From assembly GCA_013003715.1 (NCBI GenBank), contig JABDIN010000108.1, positions 124,001-188,000 on the forward strand: 64,000 nt of DNA, written 5' to 3'. Both the position numbers and the translations under genes were made by a program. Numbering within the stretch: the stretch's first letter is position 1; every line of letters starts with the position of its first letter. This stretch comes from Desulfobacteraceae bacterium (GTDB lineage Bacteria > Desulfobacterota > Desulfobacteria > Desulfobacterales > Desulfosarcinaceae). Of this stretch, positions 29,020 to 40,704 are shown piece by piece. The notes beneath the pieces were generated by a model, which saw nothing but the letters and a program-made list of their open reading frames with translations, did not search any database and was not told where the DNA came from.

Positions 29020-32000
29020 ATGAATTTCTTACGAGAATTGCACCAGGCCGCTCTGCTCACCTTTCTGATAGTCTATTTATTTCCATATACCGCCACCGCC
29101 ATTGAACAATTAACCCCCGAAGAGTCCGCCTTTTTAGCACGGAAAAAAAGCATCGTTTTTGTTCATCAGACAAATTATCCGCCGTTTGAATTCGTTGATA
29201 AATCAGGCCGGTCCGCCGGCATTACCATTGATCTCGCCCGATGGATGGCAAGCACCCACGGGTATACCGCCGAGTTTATCAATATGCCGTTCAAGATGGC
29301 CAAACAGGCGGTCCTGGATGGGCGGGCCGATGTTCTGACCAGCTTGTTTTTCAGTAAAAAAAGAGATCTGTTGTTCGCATTCAGTAAGTTGATGTTTGAA
29401 GTCCCGGCACGGATTTTCCTGTCGTCGGACCGCCCGGACATCAAATCCTTCGAAGACCTGAACGGCAAGCGAATTGCCATGCAGGCCGGAGACTATGCCC
29501 GGGAATTTCTGGATTCCAAGGCGATCCATGTGGATGTGATCGACACCCAGGATTTCGGTCAGGCGGTCGAACTGCTGTTGTCCGGGAAAGCCGACGCATT
29601 GATCGGTGATGAGCAGATCGTTCTCTACCATATTTATATGAACCGGATATCGGATCGCATCAAACGGATCGGGCCAGCCCTCTATGCGGGCCACAATTGC
29701 ATGGCCGTGAAGGAATCCGAAACCATGCTCGTGCGGATTCTGAACAAGGGCATCACATCCGCTATGGATGGCGGCGCCCTCGCCGGCATACGGGAAAAGT
29801 GGTTGGGAACGGCCGTCAGCCGCCCTCCTGGCCTGCTGCTGGCATACCTCCCTCAGATACTCCTGATCATCTGCATTGTGGGACTGGCCGCCATATGGGT
29901 CTGGCTGTGGAACCGGAAATTACGAAACCGGGTGGAGAAACGAACCCGGGAACTGGTGAATGCCCGGCAGGATCTGGCCAACTTGATCGAAAATCTGGAT
30001 GTCGGTATCTACCAGACCAGCACCACCGGAAAAGGAACGTTTGTGAAGGTCAATTCCGCATTGGCCCGCATATTGGGTTACACTTCCCCTGAAGAACTGA
30101 TGGCAACCCCGGCCATATCCCTCTATCCGGGTGTCGAAGACCGGCGAGCACTGATAGCGGAAATTGAGCGCAAAGGCCATGTTCGGGGTAAAAACATCAT
30201 TTTACTCAAAAAGGACAAGACCCCCATATGGGTTTCCCTCACCACCACCGCCAAATATGATGAAAACGGCAGGATCAAGTACATGGATGGCGTCCTGGAA
30301 GATATTACCGAGCGAAAAAAGACCGAGGAGCAGATGCGGTTGCAAAACGAATACCTGACGGCGCTGCATGACACCACCCTCGGGCTTATCAAACGATTGA
30401 ACCTGGATAATTTACTGCGCGCCATCGTCAAACGCGCCTGCGCCCTGGTGGGCACTGTCCATGGCTATATCCACCTGGTGGACCCGGTACAAGACAAGCT
30501 GGTCATTCGCACCGGTACCGGCATTTATGAAAAACTGACCGGGCGAGGCGTTGGCATGGGGGAAGGTATCGGGGGAGCTGTCTGGCAGACCGGCGAAGCA
30601 ATCGTCATCGATGACTACGGCACCTGGGCCAAAAGGGTGAATGATCCCACCCTGGACAACCTGGCCGGTGCCATGGGTGTTCCCATAAGATCCGGGGATG
30701 CGATATCCGGTGTCATCGGCGTCAGCCACTTCACGAAACATAAGAATTTCGGCGATCAGGAAGTCGTATTGATGAAACGCTTTGCGGCATTGGTGCAGGT
30801 CGCCATGGACAATGCCGAGCTGTACTCCAGGCTTGAAGCGGAATTGATTGAAAGAAAACAAACCCAGAAAACCCTGCGCAAGTATGAACATATTGTGGCC
30901 AGCTCAAAGGATCTTATGGCGCTGATCGACGATCAGTATGTTTTCCAGGTCGTGAATGAAAGCTTTGCCTCCGCATTCAATCGCAGCCGGGGGTCCATTG
31001 CCGGGCGACATGTCTCGGAGCTTTTCGGCTACAACAATTTCCATCAGAAAGTGAAAAAGAAGATGGATCTATGCCTTGCCGGAGAAAAATGTCATGAACA
31101 AAAACATCTCGATTTCCCCGGCTGGGGCCGGAAGTACATGGATATCCACCTCTACCCCTTCTTCGATGAGAACGAATCCGTTTCCGTGATCATCTTCAAT
31201 GCCCGGGATATTACAGATACCAAAGCACTGGAAGAACAATTGGTGCATGCCCAAAAGATGGAGGCCATCGGTACCCTCGCCGGCGGCATCGCCCACGATT
31301 TCAACAATATCCTCATGGGAATCCTTGGCAATGCAACCCTGCTGCTTCAGAAAATCAAACCCGGTCACCCCCATGCGGAACGCCTTATAAATATCGAATC
31401 ATATGTCAAAACCGCCGCGGACCTGACCAAGCGGCTGCTGGGATTTGCCAGGGCCGGCAAGTATGAAGTGAAACCGGCTGATCTGAACCAACTAATTCTG
31501 AAGACGTCCCAGATGTTCGGACGGACGAAAAAAGAGGTTACCATTCACACCAAATTACAGGACAAGCTATACACGGCGGAAATCGATAAAAGCCAGATCG
31601 AACAGGTGCTGGTGAATCTTTATGTGAATGCCTGGCAGGCCATGCCCTCCGGCGGCCAATTGTACCTGCAGACAGACAATACCCGATTATCATCTGACTT
31701 TGTCCGGCCCCATAATGTCGCGCCGGGAAAATACGTGAAAATATCGGTAATGGATACGGGTATCGGCATGTCCCAAAGCACCGCGCGCCGAATTTTCGAA
31801 CCCTTTTTCACCACGAAAAAAATCGGCCACGGCACCGGGCTCGGCCTGGCGTCCGCTTACGGTATCATCAAAAACCATGGGGGTATCATCACGGTATCCA
31901 GTGAAAAGGAGATGGGGACCACGTTCAGTATCTACCTCCCGGCATCCGATAAAAATGTGACTGAAGATATCAAACTGCCGCAATCCGATTTAAAGGGAAG

Positions 32001-32373
32001 TGAATCCATATTATTGGTGGACGATGAGGATATCAGTCTCAGCGCCGTGACACAAATGCTAGAACGCATGGGATATCGGGTTCTCACTGCAAACAGCGGC
32101 GAACAAGCCCTCCGAATCTATGCGGAGGCCAAAAACGATATCGATCTGGTCATCCTGGACATGATCATGCCCGACATGAGCGGCCGGGAAACCTTTGAGC
32201 GCCTGAAGGAATTGAATACCGGGGTGCGCGTGCTGCTGGCCAGCGGGTATAGTCTCAATGAGCAGGCGAAAAAAATCATGGGTATGAATTGCGACGGATT
32301 CATCCAGAAGCCGTTTACCATGGAAGAAATACACGGGAAAATCAGAGAAATTCTTTCACTGCCTGCAAATTGA
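29020..32373 (+). CDS. Hybrid sensor histidine kinase with periplasmic solute-binding domain
   Basis: This is a membrane-bound sensor of 1117 residues. A signal or anchor helix is at the N-terminus, then a periplasmic family-3 solute-binding domain (about 42-265, starting KSIVFVHQTNYPPFEF), probably binding an amino acid or similar small ligand. A transmembrane helix lies at about 275-298. It is followed by a PAS domain (about 320-440), a GAF domain (about 460-600), a second PAS domain (about 630-745), HisKA with the phosphorylated histidine H759 in GGIAHDFNN, and HATPase with GTGLGLASAYGI. A receiver domain with aspartate D1047 in LDMIMPD ends the protein. No separate response-regulator gene is adjacent, so the output is unclear. 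Such BvgS-like architectures pass phosphate through an Hpt protein; an orphan Hpt gene lies at 43087. Confidence 0.92.
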   Translation: MNFLRELHQAALLTFLIVYLFPYTATAIEQLTPEESAFLARKKSIVFVHQTNYPPFEFVDKSGRSAGITIDLARWMASTHGYTAEFINMPFKMAKQAVLDGRADVLTSLFFSKKRDLLFAFSKLMFEVPARIFLSSDRPDIKSFEDLNGKRIAMQAGDYAREFLDSKAIHVDVIDTQDFGQAVELLLSGKADALIGDEQIVLYHIYMNRISDRIKRIGPALYAGHNCMAVKESETMLVRILNKGITSAMDGGALAGIREKWLGTAVSRPPGLLLAYLPQILLIICIVGLAAIWVWLWNRKLRNRVEKRTRELVNARQDLANLIENLDVGIYQTSTTGKGTFVKVNSALARILGYTSPEELMATPAISLYPGVEDRRALIAEIERKGHVRGKNIILLKKDKTPIWVSLTTTAKYDENGRIKYMDGVLEDITERKKTEEQMRLQNEYLTALHDTTLGLIKRLNLDNLLRAIVKRACALVGTVHGYIHLVDPVQDKLVIRTGTGIYEKLTGRGVGMGEGIGGAVWQTGEAIVIDDYGTWAKRVNDPTLDNLAGAMGVPIRSGDAISGVIGVSHFTKHKNFGDQEVVLMKRFAALVQVAMDNAELYSRLEAELIERKQTQKTLRKYEHIVASSKDLMALIDDQYVFQVVNESFASAFNRSRGSIAGRHVSELFGYNNFHQKVKKKMDLCLAGEKCHEQKHLDFPGWGRKYMDIHLYPFFDENESVSVIIFNARDITDTKALEEQLVHAQKMEAIGTLAGGIAHDFNNILMGILGNATLLLQKIKPGHPHAERLINIESYVKTAADLTKRLLGFARAGKYEVKPADLNQLILKTSQMFGRTKKEVTIHTKLQDKLYTAEIDKSQIEQVLVNLYVNAWQAMPSGGQLYLQTDNTRLSSDFVRPHNVAPGKYVKISVMDTGIGMSQSTARRIFEPFFTTKKIGHGTGLGLASAYGIIKNHGGIITVSSEKEMGTTFSIYLPASDKNVTEDIKLPQSDLKGSESILLVDDEDISLSAVTQMLERMGYRVLTANSGEQALRIYAEAKNDIDLVILDMIMPDMSGRETFERLKELNTGVRVLLASGYSLNEQAKKIMGMNCDGFIQKPFTMEEIHGKIREILSLPAN

Positions 32374-33804: not shown

Positions 33805-34737
33805 TCAATCGGTGTCGGTTTTGAACAAATCCGTGCTGATGTAGCGTTCTCCGGTACTGGGCAGCACGACGACGATGCGCTTGCCCTTGTTTTCCGGGCG
33901 CCCGGCGACCTCAAGGGCCGCCCATACGGCCGCCCCCGAGGAGATCCCGCACAACACCCCTTCCGTTTTGGCGACCTGGCGGGCGGTTTCAAATGCATTG
34001 TCATTGGAGACGGTGACAATATCATCGATGATATCCGTGTCCAGAATTTCGGGAACGAACCCGGCACCGATGCCCTGGATTTTATGCGGGCCTTTGGTGC
34101 CGCCGGACAGGACCGGAGAGGCTTCGGGTTCAACAGCGATGGATTTGAATGCCGGTTTCTTGGCCTTGATGAATTGGGAAATACCGGTAATGGTGCCGCC
34201 GGTGCCGACGCCGCTGACCAGGATGTCTGCGGTGCCTTCGGTATCCTCCCAGATTTCCTTGGCGGTGGTTTCCCGGTGTGCTTCCGGATTGGCCGGATTT
34301 TTAAATTGGTCCGGCATATAGGCATTGTCGGTTGATTCGGTTATTTCCATGGCTTTTTGTATGGCGCCGCCCATGCCATCGGCCCCCGGGGTCAGCACCA
34401 GTTGAGCGCCCAGGTGTGTCAGCAGCTTCCGGCGTTCAACGCTCATGGTATCCGGCATCGTAAGGCAGAGGCGATACCCTTTAGCGGCGCATACGAAAGC
34501 CAGCGCGATACCGGTATTGCCGCTGGTGGGTTCGACGATCAAGCTGCCGGGGCCTATCAGATTCTGCCTCTCGGCGGATTCGATCATGGACCGGCCGATG
34601 CGGTCCTTCACGCTGCCCAGGGGATTTTGGAATTCAATTTTTGCCAGAATCTCCGCGCCGGCGCCGTTGGCAATTCGGTTTAAACGGACCAATGGTGTCC
34701 GGCCGATGGTGGATTGAATGGTATTGAATATTTTCAT
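33805..34737 (-). CDS. cysK: Cysteine synthase (O-acetylserine sulfhydrylase)
   Basis: This PLP enzyme makes cysteine from O-acetylserine and sulfide in the cytoplasm. The PLP lysine is K44 in [11 protein letters not shown]. The substrate loop [13 protein letters not shown] is near residue 68, and the phosphate-binding loop [11 protein letters not shown] is near 175. [12 protein letters not shown] near 263 completes the active site. The length of 310 is standard. GGAGACAAC precedes the ATG. It lies 40 bp after cysE, so the two steps from serine to cysteine are encoded together. Confidence 0.95.
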
Positions 34738-34777
34738 GTTGTCTCCTATTCACAAAAGGTGATCATTTTCAGACCGG

Positions 34778-35764
34778 CTACCCTGCCTCCTGAATGGCGA
34801 TTTTTGACCGGTTGGACTTGTACACAAGCTTCGGGTTTTCCAGAAGCACCGTCGTATCTGCGGGCACGCTGCCGGTGATCCACACGTTGCCGCCGATAAC
34901 CGACCGGGCGCCGATGATGGTTTGGCCGCCCAGGATGGTGGCGCCGGAATAGATAATCACATCATCCTCGATGGTGGGGTGACGTTTTTTACCGCGCAAT
35001 TTTTTCCCGGCGTCCTTGGGCAGTGACAATGCCCCCAGCGTAACCCCCTGGTAGACCCGCACATTCCGGCCGATTTCGGTGGTCTCCCCGATGACGATAC
35101 CGGTGCCGTGATCGATGGCAAACCGCTCACCGATTTGAGCGCCGGGGTGGATATCGATACCGGTCTCCCGGTGTGCATGTTCGGTCATTATCCGCGGCAG
35201 CATGGGGACACCATGTTTGCTGATTTCATGCGCCACCCGGTAAACCGTTATGGCATAGATACCGGGATAGCAGAAGATTATTTCATCGTAGCCTTTGGCC
35301 GCCGGATCGCCGTCAAACGCCGCCTGAACATCCGTGGCCAGAATCCGCCGCAAGGCCGGAACGGATGACAGGACATCAAGGGCGATCTTCTGCCCGAGCT
35401 CTTCACAATCCTTGCAGGATTGGTGATATTTGAAACAATCATGACGGATATGGTGGGTAATGTTTTCAGACAGCAGATCATAGAGTTGGGATACGGATTG
35501 TCCCATGCCATACTTCAGATTTGCCGGATCCAGCTTTTCCTTTTCATAATATCCGGGAAATAAAATCTCCCTGAATTTGTCTATTATTTCGGAAACATAA
35601 CCTTCTGTTGTAAGGGGTTCATACTCCACATGGGAGAACGCGTCCGTATCAATGCAATCCTTGATGATTTGTTCGGCAATCTCCGGCAACCTGGCGCGGA
35701 TGCCGGCACTCACCTCGGCATCGGTCCGGCATGCCTTATCGAGTTCCAGGGTGTTCTTTACCAT
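34778..35764 (-). CDS. cysE: Serine O-acetyltransferase (long form)
   Basis: This enzyme acetylates serine with acetyl-CoA, the first step of cysteine synthesis. The C-terminal half is a left-handed beta-helix with hexapeptide repeats: [20 protein letters not shown], then [20 protein letters not shown], then [19 protein letters not shown]. Catalytic His residues sit in AIDHGTG and in the upstream [13 protein letters not shown]. The N-terminal 170 helical residues make it a long form (328 residues) of the EpsC type found in plants and many anaerobes. AAGGAGACGG precedes the ATG. It is the first gene of the cysE-cysK pair. Confidence 0.93.
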
Positions 35765-35826: not shown

Positions 35827-36540
35827 TCATCCGGTGGAACTGGACGTATTCAACTTGTACCCCACCCCCTGAACCGTGAGGATATAATTCGGCTGGTCCG
35901 GATTTTCCTCGACCTTCGATCGCAGATGCTGGACATGGACATCGATGGCACGGCTCCACTTATACAGGGTTTTATCCGGCCAGATCTCACGCCGGATGGT
36001 ATGCCGGTCCAATACACATCCCGCGTGTTTTGACAGCAGGGACAGGATTTCGAACTCTTTTTTGGTCAGGTTCACGGAGCGGCCGCCGACCATGACCTCC
36101 CGTGTGTCCGGATCGATGAAAAGACCGTTGATCTCCTGCGCCACACCGGATGGATGCGAGGTTTGCATTCTTCTCAAACAGGCATTTATACGGGCGGCAA
36201 GCTCCAAATAGTCGAAGGGTTTGACCAGGTAATCGTCCGCACCGCTCTCCAGGCCCAACACCTTGTCCGAGATGCCATCCTTGGCGGTCAGCATGATAAT
36301 CGGTACCGGTGACCGCCCACGGATTGCCCGGCATACCTGTATGCCATCCATATCCGGCAGCATCAGGTCCAGCACCACTAGTTCCGGTGTATACCGGTCG
36401 AATATGTCCAGGGCTTCCTGCCCGCAGCTCGCCATGTCCGGCGTATACCCGTCGAGCCGCAGGTTATCCTCAAGAATAGTCCGAATATCCGGATCATCGT
36501 CGACAACCAGTATGTGATGCTTTTGGACGGGGTTCACCAT
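35827..36540 (-). CDS. OmpR/PhoB-type response regulator
   Basis: This cytoplasmic transcription factor is paired with the heme-type kinase upstream. The receiver domain (about 8-120) has the acidic pocket VVDDDPD, phosphoacceptor D58 in VLDLMLPD, and the conserved Thr and Lys in MLTAKD and YLVKPFD. The C-terminal winged helix (about 140-236) includes LTKKEFEILSLLSKHAGCVL and RAIDVHVQHLRSKVEENPDQP, then ILTVQGVGYKL. I chose the ATG at 36540 (GGAAGTG upstream) rather than a TTG nine codons earlier that overlaps the kinase stop. It is a strong candidate to bind the four TTTACA boxes at 38339-38376. Confidence 0.92.
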   Translation of the reverse strand: MVNPVQKHHILVVDDDPDIRTILEDNLRLDGYTPDMASCGQEALDIFDRYTPELVVLDLMLPDMDGIQVCRAIRGRSPVPIIMLTAKDGISDKVLGLESGADDYLVKPFDYLELAARINACLRRMQTSHPSGVAQEINGLFIDPDTREVMVGGRSVNLTKKEFEILSLLSKHAGCVLDRHTIRREIWPDKTLYKWSRAIDVHVQHLRSKVEENPDQPNYILTVQGVGYKLNTSSSTG

Positions 36541-36563
36541 GATCACTTCCGTATGGTAAAAGT

Positions 36564-38213
36564 TCAATTCAACAAGTCCTGATGCTGCGGCTCCATGGGA
36601 AGTGCGAATTTGAAAACACTTCCTTTACCCGGCCGGCTCTCCACGCTGATCCGTCCTCCGTGTGCAAGGACCAGCGCCTTGCAAATGGAAAGCCCGATGC
36701 CGGAGGATCCTTTGTGCACATGATCATTGGGCCGTCCGGGTATCTGATAGAACTTTTGAAATATGGCGTCGTGATGCCGTGGATCGATACCGGGTCCCTC
36801 ATCCGCAATCGCCGTCGTGATATGGTTGCCGCTGCGCGCAATGTCAACCTGCACCTTGCTGTGGTGGGGAGAAAACTTGACCGCATTGGAAACCAGGTTG
36901 GAAAGCACCTGAAACAGGCGGTGGGGATCTGCGTTGAGGTATAGTTCGTCCCGGCATTTCAATTCGATCCGGATTGCTTTTTCGGCGGCCACCGCCTCAT
37001 GGGAGAGTATGACGTCCTTTGCCATTCCGGACAGCTGTACCCGCTGCCGGTCCAATTCCAGTCGACCGTTTTCAATCCGCGCATAATCCAGAAAATCAAT
37101 GATCGTCTGGTGCAGATGCTCGGTGTTTTTACGGATGATGTTCACATATACCGGGTCCGCACACGAGGATTTGCGTATCAAGGTATCGGTTGCGCCTTTG
37201 ATGGCGGTGAGCGGGGTTCTCAATTCATGGGAAATGTCGCTGAAAAAATCCGTTTTGGCCTGGTTCAATTTGGTCAACTCGCCATTGAGCTCCAAAAGCT
37301 TCCGATTGGTCGCGTGATATTGTCCGGTGGCCTGGGTAATCTTTTTTTCCAGTTCCAGGTGCTGATTTTTAAGCTTGTCGTCAATCAGGTAGCATAGGCC
37401 GGTAAGCTGGGATAACTCGTCACCTTTGATCTCCGGAACATGGTCAAAGTCCTGTGACCGGATTCGGGAGGTAATATCCCTGATCTTTCTAATGGGCCGG
37501 GAAATGAGGCGCTGGGTCAAAAAGAACAGAATCATCATAACGGTGATGGTCAGTCCGGCCATGGCCGAAAACAGGGACAACTTTTCGCTTTTGATTGCGT
37601 CCACGGCCTCCCGGCAGGGGATAAGCACACTGATGCACCCGCCGACATCGCCCACCTGATAAATCGTTGTGGTGTGGCAGCCCAGGCAGCTCTCCCGTAT
37701 CAACAGCGGCGCCGCATAACGGTAAACATAGTTGCCGTTTGTCCGTTCCAGGCGGCCGAGACCGTTTTGCTCTCCGGATTTAAACAGGGCGATGGCCCGG
37801 GATTCGAACTCATCCGGCTGATTCAGGGGATTGATACCATCATGGTTGGCTAAATTGAACGAGTATAGCCGGCTCCTGCCCGCGTATTCCGACAAGCTTC
37901 GGGTCAATCCCGCAGGTGTGATACGGGTGTAGGCTTTTCCGTGCACATCATGAAGTTTCGGGCTGTCGAGGATATAGTCGGTGAAGGTGTTGTCCTTATT
38001 GGCCACCAGAACATAGTTATGGTCCGATACCCATTGACGGGTGAGAACGATCTGCCGGTGGAGGATAACCGCCTGCTTCTCCACCTGCGCCATGATGTAT
38101 TGCTCCTGCCTGCCGGATATCCAAAAATACAGCGCACTGAAAACCGCAGCGAGCATCACGCCGGTGATGATCAGATACTTTAAGGAGATATGTCGACGGG
38201 CATATGTGAGCAT
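36564..38213 (-). CDS. Sensor histidine kinase with c-type heme motif in its periplasmic domain (DUF3365/Tll0287-like)
   Basis: This is a membrane sensor of 549 residues, counting from the ATG at 38213. TM1 is near residues 12-32; a periplasmic domain of about 160 residues follows, carrying a CLGCH heme-binding motif at 176-180, just before TM2 (about 210-232). The HAMP linker has SRPIRKIRDITSRIRSQDF. HisKA has phosphorylated H329 in DISHELRTPL, and the ATPase has the N box SNLVSNAVKF and the G boxes DEGPGI and GSSGIGLSI. The region around TRQWVSDHNYVLVANKD and RYAAPLLIRESCLGCH matches the heme-binding DUF3365 sensor fold, which can bind c-type heme and sense redox state or small ligands. It is divergent from a tetraheme and octaheme cytochrome pair, so control of that respiratory module is inferred. 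Confidence 0.9.
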   Translation of the reverse strand: MLTYARRHISLKYLIITGVMLAAVFSALYFWISGRQEQYIMAQVEKQAVILHRQIVLTRQWVSDHNYVLVANKDNTFTDYILDSPKLHDVHGKAYTRITPAGLTRSLSEYAGRSRLYSFNLANHDGINPLNQPDEFESRAIALFKSGEQNGLGRLERTNGNYVYRYAAPLLIRESCLGCHTTTIYQVGDVGGCISVLIPCREAVDAIKSEKLSLFSAMAGLTITVMMILFFLTQRLISRPIRKIRDITSRIRSQDFDHVPEIKGDELSQLTGLCYLIDDKLKNQHLELEKKITQATGQYHATNRKLLELNGELTKLNQAKTDFFSDISHELRTPLTAIKGATDTLIRKSSCADPVYVNIIRKNTEHLHQTIIDFLDYARIENGRLELDRQRVQLSGMAKDVILSHEAVAAEKAIRIELKCRDELYLNADPHRLFQVLSNLVSNAVKFSPHHSKVQVDIARSGNHITTAIADEGPGIDPRHHDAIFQKFYQIPGRPNDHVHKGSSGIGLSICKALVLAHGGRISVESRPGKGSVFKFALPMEPQHQDLLN

Positions 38214-38338
38214 TAGGTCTCTTTTTATGAGCTTGATGACGATCGATATTCGGGAAACCGACAATATCGATATCAAATTTGGTTTGATCAAACAAGCAAA
38301 GACCACAAGGTGGTACCGATGGGACCGACTGAGTAAAA

Positions 38339-38376
38339 TTTACACTTTTTTTACATCCTTTTACAGCATCTTTACC
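38339..38376. promoter_or_regulatory. Four phased TTTACA-type boxes, probable response-regulator operator
   Basis: TTTACA occurs at 38339, 38350 and 38360 and TTTACC at 38371, steps of 11, 10 and 11 bases, so all boxes lie on one face of the helix. OmpR/PhoB-type regulators bind such direct repeats. The site lies between the divergent heme kinase and cytochrome genes. A weak -35/-10 pair for the cytochromes follows (TTGATA at 38384, GATAAT at 38409, spacer 19). Confidence 0.6.
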
Positions 38377-38539
38377 TTGGGTTTTGATACTTTGATGATG
38401 ACTTTCCAGATAATCTTGAGTGGAAATCGTCAATTGCCGGTTCATCACCTGCTATTTCCATCGATAAACCATTAATGATGAGGTCCTTAACCGCGTGCAA
38501 CCCGTCCGGAAATTCCGGATAACATCTCCTGGGTCAGGT

Positions 38540-39094
38540 ATGAAAAAAAAGCATATTATCGGGATAACATTGATCGCCGCCGGTATCGTTATCGGATTTC
38601 CCCTGTTCAGCATGACTTACTATACCATGGTCCGTACATCAACTCCCGGATTCTGCGCATCCTGTCATGAAATTGAGTTTGCCTACAATACGTGGAAAAC
38701 ATCCACCCATGTCAACAATGCCCAGGGTTTTGTGGCGGATTGCATGGATTGCCACCTGCCGGCCCCCCACGACACGATCAACTTTTTCTATAGTAAAACC
38801 TTCCACGGTATCAAAGATGTCTTTGTTCATTTTTTGGGCGGTCCCTATGACCGGGAAAAAAACCGGCAGGCCGCTTATGACGCTTTCACAAACCAGCAAT
38901 GCCAGAAATGTCACCGGAATATTTTATATATCCCTGAAAAACGGGGCGCCATGCTGGCCCACCGGTCCGTCATTTATCCCCGGGAGGGTTTTGAAAAACG
39001 ATGTGTGGACTGCCATAGAAATCTGGTCCACGTGGAGCGCGATGTGTATGAATACAAACAATTCAAGACAGCCTACAAGGGCTTGGGACTTTAA
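38540..39094 (+). CDS. NapC/NirT/NrfH-family tetraheme cytochrome c (quinol dehydrogenase)
   Basis: This membrane-anchored cytochrome takes electrons from the quinol pool and passes them to a periplasmic multiheme reductase. One N-terminal membrane anchor (HIIGITLIAAGIVIGFPLF) is present. Four CxxCH heme motifs follow: CASCH 39-43, CMDCH 68-72, CQKCH 121-125 and CVDCH 155-159. The length of 184 and the four hemes fit NrfH and HaoC. The start at 38540 is chosen because the anchor starts immediately after it; an upstream in-frame ATG at 38495 adds 15 polar residues. The next gene, 94 bp on, encodes an octaheme protein, the usual partner. Expression is probably controlled by the divergent heme-type two-component system. 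Confidence 0.9.
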   Translation: MKKKHIIGITLIAAGIVIGFPLFSMTYYTMVRTSTPGFCASCHEIEFAYNTWKTSTHVNNAQGFVADCMDCHLPAPHDTINFFYSKTFHGIKDVFVHFLGGPYDREKNRQAAYDAFTNQQCQKCHRNILYIPEKRGAMLAHRSVIYPREGFEKRCVDCHRNLVHVERDVYEYKQFKTAYKGLGL

Positions 39095-39188
39095 TGCATT
39101 TGCAACCGATTGACCACCGACGAATCAATGAAACGGGCACATATTCGATTTTGATTTAAAGAGATACCACAATTAAGGGGGGCTTACG

Positions 39189-40589
39189 ATGAAAAAAACG
39201 GGTAAGATACTTGCTGCGATGTTGATATCGGCAGGATTGATCGCGGCGTCGATGGTGACCGCCGATGTCCTGGCGCAGCAAAATCAGCCAAAAGAGAAAT
39301 CTTTTCGGATCGAGCGCGGCATGCCAAAGGAGGCCATGGCCTGTATCGATTGCCATAAAAAAGAGAACCCGGGTCTGTTTGCGGACTGGGCCCAGAGCCG
39401 TCACGCTGCAGCCAACATCACCTGCTATGATTGTCACGCAGCCGACGCCACGGACGCGGATGTCAGTCAAGCCCACTACAAACAATATGAACGCTCCGAC
39501 CATAAGTTCGGTACCAGCGAGTATAAAACACCCATTGCTGCGGTGGTGACCCCAAAAGACTGTTCACGCTGTCATCCGGATGAATCCAAGCAGTACAGCG
39601 TGAGCAAGCATGCCAACACCATGGAGATTATCTGGAAGATCGATCCCTGGCTGAACCATGGCATGAACAGTGATTTTGAACGGGCATCCGGCTGCTACCA
39701 CTGCCATGGCACGATCCTGAAAACAAAGGACGGAAAGCTGGACCCGGAAACCTGGCCGAATGTCGGGGTCGGCAGAATCAATTTGGACGGCAGCAAAGGC
39801 AGTTGCACCAGTTGCCACACGCGTCACCGATTTTCAGTGATGGAGGCCAGAAAACCCGAAGCCTGCGGCCAGTGCCACCTGGGACCGGATCATCCGCAGA
39901 TCGAAATCTTCATGGAATCGAAGCACGGTGATATTTACACCGCCCATGGCGATGATTATAACTGGGATTCAGCGCCGGGCACTTGGACACCCGGAGTGGA
40001 TTTCAGAGGCCCCACCTGCGCCTCCTGTCACATGTCCGGATCAGGCACCGTGCTGACCAGCCATGATGTTACCGAACGCCTCTCCTGGGAAATTCAGGCC
40101 CCGTTAACGGTAAGACCCCAGGATTTCGCGGCGTTCCCCGCCAAGACCAACTGGCAGACGGAGCGCGATAAAATGAAGGAAGTGTGCACCCAGTGTCACG
40201 GAAACACCTGGGTGGACGACCATTATTATAAGCTGGACAAGGTGGTCGAAGAGTATAACGAAGTGTACTTCAAGCCGGCCAAGAAAATACTCGACGAATT
40301 GTACGACAAGGGGCTCATGGATAAAAGTCGCTTCTTCGATGAGCACCTGGAGGTCGAATATTATGAATTGTGGCACCATGAGGGCCGGCGTGCCCGCATG
40401 GGAACGGCGATGATGGCGCCGGATTATGCCTGGTGGCATGGATTTTACGAATGTAAAAAACGGTACAACTCATACATGGAAGAGGCCCGTGAGCTGATCA
40501 GCCATAATAAAAAAGCTTACAAAGCCACGGACTTCCCCAACGCCACCGGCACCACCCAAAAACCCAAGGAGTTATTCCCGGATCAATAA
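39189..40589 (+). CDS. Octaheme cytochrome c of the hydroxylamine oxidoreductase (HAO) family
   Basis: This is a periplasmic octaheme enzyme. The signal peptide spans about residues 1-30 (cut near VLA-QQ). Eight CxxCH motifs occur at 52, 79, 125, 169, 206, 226, 277 and 333, followed by a heme-free helical tail of about 130 residues containing MAPDYAWWHGFYECKKRY. This arrangement is typical of HAO-like proteins, not of NrfA (five hemes with a CxxCK). With an NrfH-like partner directly upstream, the pair resembles the haoCA module of epsilonproteobacteria, whose HAO lacks the cross-linked tyrosine and is thought to reduce nitrite or hydroxylamine. Whether the tyrosine is present here needs an alignment. 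AAGGGGGG precedes the ATG. Confidence 0.88.
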   Translation: MKKTGKILAAMLISAGLIAASMVTADVLAQQNQPKEKSFRIERGMPKEAMACIDCHKKENPGLFADWAQSRHAAANITCYDCHAADATDADVSQAHYKQYERSDHKFGTSEYKTPIAAVVTPKDCSRCHPDESKQYSVSKHANTMEIIWKIDPWLNHGMNSDFERASGCYHCHGTILKTKDGKLDPETWPNVGVGRINLDGSKGSCTSCHTRHRFSVMEARKPEACGQCHLGPDHPQIEIFMESKHGDIYTAHGDDYNWDSAPGTWTPGVDFRGPTCASCHMSGSGTVLTSHDVTERLSWEIQAPLTVRPQDFAAFPAKTNWQTERDKMKEVCTQCHGNTWVDDHYYKLDKVVEEYNEVYFKPAKKILDELYDKGLMDKSRFFDEHLEVEYYELWHHEGRRARMGTAMMAPDYAWWHGFYECKKRYNSYMEEARELISHNKKAYKATDFPNATGTTQKPKELFPDQ

Positions 40590-40613: not shown

Positions 40614-40657
40614 AAAAACAAAACCCTGCTTGCTCAAGCAAGCAGGGTTTTGTTTTT
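40614..40657. terminator. Bidirectional rho-independent terminator
   Basis: Arms of 21 bases (40614-40634 and 40637-40657) are exact reverse complements around AAACCCTGCTTGCT, with A-runs on the left and T-runs on the right. It closes the cytochrome operon and can also end the convergent small gene at 40705. Confidence 0.93.
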
Positions 40658-40704
40658 CCCCACGGGGTCCCCGGATCAGGGATCAGCCGATTTACCCGTT
40701 CTTT

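Follow-up and report, generated by a model that had tools for sequence, protein, structure and literature searches.

A predicted heme c sensor kinase, its regulator and a putative phased operator facing nitrite- and nitrate-reductase operons in Desulfobacterota

Whether sediments retain their fixed nitrogen depends on nitrate ammonification, and little is known of how sulfate reducers other than Desulfovibrio control it. A 64,000-nucleotide stretch of a 5.5 Mb Desulfobacteraceae genome bin (GCA_013003715.1, contig JABDIN010000108.1, positions 124,001 to 188,000; referred to as the window), whose relatives are Desulfosarcinaceae and other Desulfobacterales, carries a histidine kinase and an OmpR/PhoB-type regulator on the minus strand, divergent from a tetraheme and an octaheme cytochrome (haoCA) on the plus strand, with four repeated boxes in the intergenic region between the likely starts. 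The locus raises the question whether the kinase pair governs the cytochromes, and in answer to which signal. The most plausible answer, in our view (probability roughly 0.7), is that a two-component system is dedicated to switching periplasmic nitrite ammonification, with haoCA as its output here, so that a specific sensor, regulator, operator and target can be proposed. A first-pass annotation made from the letters of the window had described a kinase with a CLGCH motif, an OmpR-type regulator, four boxes and the divergent cytochrome pair; each of these details was recovered from the open reading frames (ORFs), from Pfam and from the sequence, as follows.

35827..36567, minus strand: OmpR/PhoB-type response regulator, 246 aa, likely start ATG 36540; Pfam Response_reg and Trans_reg_C above cut-off.
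36564..38306, minus strand: membrane histidine kinase with a periplasmic Tll0287/sCache_heme domain, 580-aa ORF; PF11845, HisKA and HATPase_c.
37674..37688, minus strand: CLGCH motif for attachment of heme c (residues 207-211 of the kinase), read from the sequence.
38339..38344, plus strand: operator box 1, TTTACA, from the sequence and comparison across loci.
38350..38355, plus strand: operator box 2, TTTACA, from the same two sources.
38360..38365, plus strand: operator box 3, TTTACA, from the same two sources.
38371..38376, plus strand: operator box 4, TTTACC, from the same two sources.
38385..38393, plus strand: extended -10-like element (TGn + TACTTT) facing the cytochromes, from column conservation over 23 sites.
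38495..39094, plus strand: NapC/NrfH-family tetraheme cytochrome, HaoC-like; Cytochrom_NNT PF03264, E 1.5e-35, four CxxCH.
39189..40589, plus strand: octaheme HAO-like cytochrome, HaoA-like, 466 aa; Multi-haem_cyto PF13447, E 1.6e-32, eight CxxCH.
40620..40658, plus strand: stem-loop with T run, probably terminating the cytochrome operon, read from the sequence.

The regulator gene lies immediately downstream of the kinase gene on the same strand. For the kinase, ATG 38213 (MLTYARRHISLKY) was preferred as start over GTG 38306; the tetraheme gene likely starts at ATG 38540 (MKKKHIIG).

Conserved linkage across relatives, on which the first-pass annotation had staked its proposal, was found, and the operator is conserved along with it. 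Across many families of Desulfobacterota, and in one Nitrospirota genome, related kinase-regulator pairs adjoin haoCA, nrfHA or nap-type operons. At almost all of their loci, the closest of these kinases (clade I; sensor 42-56% identical to that of the window) stand next to tetraheme-octaheme, octaheme-NapA or NrfHA operons. In the kinase tree, the 12 clade-I rows of sufficient length group at 100/100, with HaoI, HaoII and NrfHA partners interleaved inside, and the octahemes themselves form three groups: HaoI (60-80% identical to the window's), HaoII (about 40%) and a third (about 40% to HaoI, 35% to HaoII). From the interleaved tree and the three groups it follows that the regulator has been associated with more than one kind of enzyme. 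One of the loci (L126/L184) holds true NrfHA by curated cut-offs (NrfH homologue of L126: 158.4 bits against 134.2). In L132 and L133 a single run of genes encodes octaheme, tetraheme, DsrO-like, NrfD/DsrP-like and NapA-like proteins (functions scanned in L132), and in a Nitrospiraceae genome (L135) the output side includes a fragment of NapA. Among the loci found by scanning for the operator, described below, L255-L257 hold octaheme-NapA operons, and L249-L251 an octaheme with a type II DMSO-reductase/NarG-like protein, between which Rieske and cytochrome b-like ORFs were recognized by eye.

Within the order itself the picture is sparser. Octaheme relatives occur in 239 of 292 genomes. At 80 loci fetched around such relatives, tetraheme and octaheme genes almost always occur side by side; only one other of these loci (G203, L094/L122) has an adjoining kinase-regulator pair of this type, and one more (G029, L054/L121) has the regulator alone. 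The notion of a self-contained sensing and respiration module held for the linkage, but the module is less self-contained than proposed: most haoCA pairs of the order do without the kinase pair, and elsewhere the same pair stands before other enzymes.

The boxes follow one another in steps of 11, 10 and 11 bases. A search with a three-box subset gave one match in the window and none in 100 shuffles. Each locus was scored by its best four-box TTTAC array around the tetraheme start (maximum 20). All 11 distinct clade-I loci scored reached 19 or 20, always with 11-10-11 spacing; L132, L133 and L135, outside this scoring set, also carry the array at 19-20. G029, whose kinase is missing, retains a degenerate array (17/20). 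In the 66 haoCA loci without the kinase pair no array was found, the score being at most 16, the same ceiling as for shuffled sequences. With up to 2 mismatches the four-box pattern has a single site in the 5.5 Mb window genome, and across ten whole genomes exactly one site in nine, located at this promoter, and none in G029. Scanning DNA alone with up to 1 mismatch returned the pattern in 10 of 390 genomes of the order and 12 of 395 of the phylum; every match was the promoter of an output operon of this type, with the kinase adjacent wherever the contig continues. Of ten further matches that were fetched, one (G761) being the already known locus L134, nine adjoin the kinase; at the tenth (G081, L248) the contig edge follows just past the array, and the tetraheme-octaheme pair lies on the other side. 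Chance repeats were rejected on the basis of the shuffles, the reversed control pattern and the conservation.

Over 23 distinct sites the consensus reads AA-TTTACA-nnTTC-TTTACA-n4-TTTAC-n6-TTTAC, then TGnTAT about 9 bases past box 4. The last element resembles an extended -10 (T46 17/23, G47 18/23, T49 17/23, A50 23/23, T51 17/23), is oriented to the cytochromes and, in most loci, stands at a constant distance from the boxes. It emerged only through comparison; a sigma-70 -35/-10 scan of the window's intergenic region gave nothing suitably placed. Promoters of the PhoB pho-box class II have phased head-to-tail boxes in steps of about 11 bases, a -10 roughly 11 bases downstream and no -35, and the spacing between array and -10 matches this type of activation, with transcription towards the enzymes. 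Four boxes kept in spacing and place form the phased direct repeat that OmpR/PhoB regulators use, and are taken as a putative operator. As an aside, recognition-helix residues were tried as a predictor of operator type and discarded, the split between QHLR and QRLR not being clean and L126 breaking the rule.

Comparison of the loci shows kinase, regulator, putative four-box operator and extended -10 inherited together, facing a nitrite- or nitrate-reductase operon, and by the same comparison linkage and operator are far beyond chance. We put it at even odds that kinase, regulator and operator make up a portable cassette controlling nitrate ammonification among Desulfobacterota and Nitrospirota, which is kept while the enzyme under it is exchanged (HaoCA clades, NrfHA, octaheme-NapA, octaheme-Nar-like), and that a periplasmic NO sensor whose heme is covalently bound would here have a regulon assigned for the first time.

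What the cytochromes do was approached through their families and the rest of the genome. The tetraheme scored 75.6 bits against the NrfH model (NCBIfam TIGR03153), under the cut-off of 134.2, and thus belongs to the NapC/NrfH family without being NrfH itself. The octaheme exceeded the Multi-haem_cyto cut-off (113 bits against 21.9), with the multiheme protein 4qo5 as best PDB match (E 7e-46) and HAO structures next. In the window genome NapA is present (959.7 bits, cut-off 930.55) and a convincing NrfA is absent (only a weak PF02335 match, 20-33 bits), so that HaoCA is likely the nitrite reductase of this genome and the best candidate to take nitrite onward.

The signal has to be sought in the sensor. 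Kinase residues 69-230 match the Pfam Tll0287-like family (E 1.3e-16; 61.7 bits against a cut-off of 24.1), the HAMP match being sub-threshold. Both cysteines and the histidine of CxxCH are invariant in 44 of 44 aligned sensor domains. An AlphaFold model of residues 36-255 (pLDDT 88) had Tll0287 (5b82) as best fold match in the PDB and GSU0935 (3b42) as third. The kinase is predicted to carry heme c in its periplasmic domain. The sequence alignment to Tll0287 stops short of the N-terminal helix and does not place the distal heme ligand. Besides CxxCH, His96 and Cys224 are invariant in clade-I sensors. Position 96 is Cys in many clade-II kinases, and residues 96 and 224 are possibly axial heme ligands or redox-active residues.

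Cache domains with heme c were described as sCache_heme in a 2026 preprint (PMC12889525), in which a HAMP-linked protein of P. azotoformans bound NO tightly, released it at about 6e-4 per second and formed no stable oxygen complex. Geobacter relatives show redox-linked ligand changes (PMC8396549). The earlier proposal that the kinase senses redox state or a heme ligand and switches on the cytochromes gains support from the tight NO binding of a member of the sensor family (PMC12889525) and from the nitrate and nitrite reductases that are the outputs of the relatives; the signal and the DNA binding we infer. A nitrogen-oxide signal is favoured because the target genes are nitrate/nitrite systems, and the best reading is accordingly a dedicated, presumably NO- or nitrite-responsive two-component switch for nitrate ammonification.

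In such a switch, NO from accumulating or incompletely reduced nitrite would act on the periplasmic heme and alter kinase activity, nitrite or redox state being less likely signals than NO. The phosphorylated regulator would bind the phased boxes as two head-to-tail dimers and activate transcription in the class-II fashion of PhoB, the boxes replacing the -35 element. The tetraheme would then hand quinol electrons to the octaheme. Acting after NapA, the periplasmic nitrate reductase, the octaheme may reduce nitrite, NO or hydroxylamine in the direction of ammonium.

Several points weigh against this reading. Most of the genome records are metagenome-assembled. In a Desulfomonile bin (L130, 1-7884), genes for a NiFe hydrogenase large subunit and a NuoF-like protein lie near a clade-I kinase pair, and the TTTAC array is absent. 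The reversed control pattern matched three times in the order scan, and never in the phylum scan. The NO-binding data concern one distant protein, that of P. azotoformans, and published work on the Geobacter relatives calls them redox-linked (PMC8396549). His96 or Cys224 could each be an axial ligand, so that the heme may have no open site and NO binding cannot be assumed. These same two invariant residues, as possible sixth ligands, would suit a kinase that reads redox potential: in the same circuit, the oxidation state of the heme would alter axial ligation and thereby kinase activity, without binding of NO or nitrite. The redox-linked properties of GSU0582, GSU0935 and stand-alone Tll0287-type domains (PMC8396549, PMC12889525) agree with this, whereas the tested HAMP-linked family member behaves as an NO sensor (PMC12889525) and the output operons are nitrate/nitrite systems instead of general respiratory genes, which points to a nitrogen-oxide signal. 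We rate redox sensing as a serious though distinctly less probable version of the circuit.

The remaining alternatives concern the wiring. That the array mainly autoregulates or represses the kinase-regulator operon, with the cytochromes controlled otherwise, is improbable: a divergent intergenic region would allow action both ways, but the conserved extended -10 points to the cytochromes, and G029 keeps regulator, degenerate array and haoCA together after the kinase has gone. A little less probable still, the boxes could belong to another, unlinked regulator of the OmpR family, with the kinase pair a mere neighbour. TTTAC direct repeats resemble CpxR-type boxes, which would suit such a regulator; however, the kinase lies beside every array unless the contig ends, the 66 haoCA loci without the pair are also without the array, and each genome has a single array, which makes a global regulator unlikely. 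Least probable by far is a linkage without functional meaning, inherited vertically as a fixed gene block. The genes for cysK and serine acetyltransferase (SAT; 33805-35764) that adjoin the window locus do stand next to haoCA in several other genomes of the order, and this shared neighbourhood is what such a block would predict; yet the same kinase clade adjoins three octaheme clades and NrfHA, so that partners have been swapped, and the intergenic sequence outside the array has diverged.

The cysK-SAT site also displays the cassette in different states. In six loci (L039, L047, L052, L053, L066, L088) the kinase pair is missing between cysK-SAT and the haoCA genes that they face, whereas it is present there in the window, L122 and L119. 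In G029 (L054:4285-7403) only the regulator is found there, together with the degenerate array and haoCA, which reads as a natural kinase loss. The cytochromes of L119 are HaoII in the same cysK-SAT neighbourhood, which is how an enzyme exchange under a kept regulator would look, no order of events being implied.

Clade-II kinases (sensor about 31-39% identical) also adjoin haoCA (L123, L136, L186, L189, L190, L191, L193, L197, L198). Their regulator gene is co-directional with the cytochromes, the four-box array is missing and most carry another conserved upstream footprint (GTTACA, TTTACA, GTTGC, TTGAC), for which reason they were kept apart from clade I.

Published systems resemble the locus in parts. 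As at PhoB pho-box promoters, an OmpR-type regulator goes with phased boxes, a downstream -10 and no -35; unlike there (CTGTCAT), the boxes are TTTAC in 11-10-11 spacing and the output is nitrogen-oxide genes. The E. coli sensors NarX and NarQ bind nitrate/nitrite without heme, and NarL and NarP are not OmpR-type, so both halves differ from the heme c motif and regulator found here. With NarX-NarL and NarQ-NarP the locus shares membrane kinases governing periplasmic nitrate/nitrite reductase operons (PMC12285233). The nearest functional counterpart is NrfS-NrfR of Desulfovibrio, a two-component system described as sigma-54-dependent and divergent from nrfHA, likewise in a sulfate reducer, which answers nitrite (or nitrate) and has sites also before nap (PMC5701242). 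Unlike NrfR, the regulator here has only Response_reg and a Trans_reg_C winged helix and no AAA+ domain; unlike NrfS-NrfR, the sensor has a heme c motif and the putative operator is a phased direct repeat. The sCache_heme signalling proteins share the CxxCH sensor family, transmembrane helices, HAMP and a signalling output; that work gives no target genes or neighbourhoods (PMC12889525), whereas comparison here assigns a specific candidate regulon and operator. For the cytochromes, the reverse-HURM HaoA-CycB of Nautilia profundicola likewise combines an octaheme HAO-like with a NapC/NrfH-type tetraheme protein, proposed to reduce nitrite downstream of Nap, but its genes are unlinked (NAMH_1280, NAMH_0559), and the text of that paper contains no word beginning with 'regulat' (PMC3701875). 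A literature search, incomplete in coverage, returned no published regulator of this operon and no account of the kinase-operator-haoCA arrangement; novelty is unproven for that reason.

The locus offers a possible physiological role for the recently described class of heme c NO-binding sensors. The operator sequence can be used to find nitrite- or nitrate-reducing operons from a DNA pattern alone, and the same switch before different nitrate/nitrite enzymes in many species makes control of the pathway testable.

Some minor observations concern related genes. In the sensor of L130, position 83 is Cys, where other clade-I kinases have His or Tyr. At L253:5636-6487 (the locus L134) a single 284-aa ORF joins the kinase sensor to part of the regulator and lacks the catalytic part, either by real deletion or by an assembly fault. 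Kinase-regulator pairs that are more distant but share the sensor family (L200, L201, L203-L207) have no cytochromes nearby. A second, distant octaheme (about 30-42% identical; G000:C54:58392-59750, L109) is encoded in the window genome without this kinase pair, and octaheme paralogues of greater length (about 720-760 aa, with 56-60% identity across the octaheme part) were seen in several genomes, at L102-L108, L068 and L101, some adjoining the usual pair. Upstream of the locus (29020-32373), a 1117-aa ORF reads as a solute-binding-type sensor with PAS-like, kinase and receiver parts.

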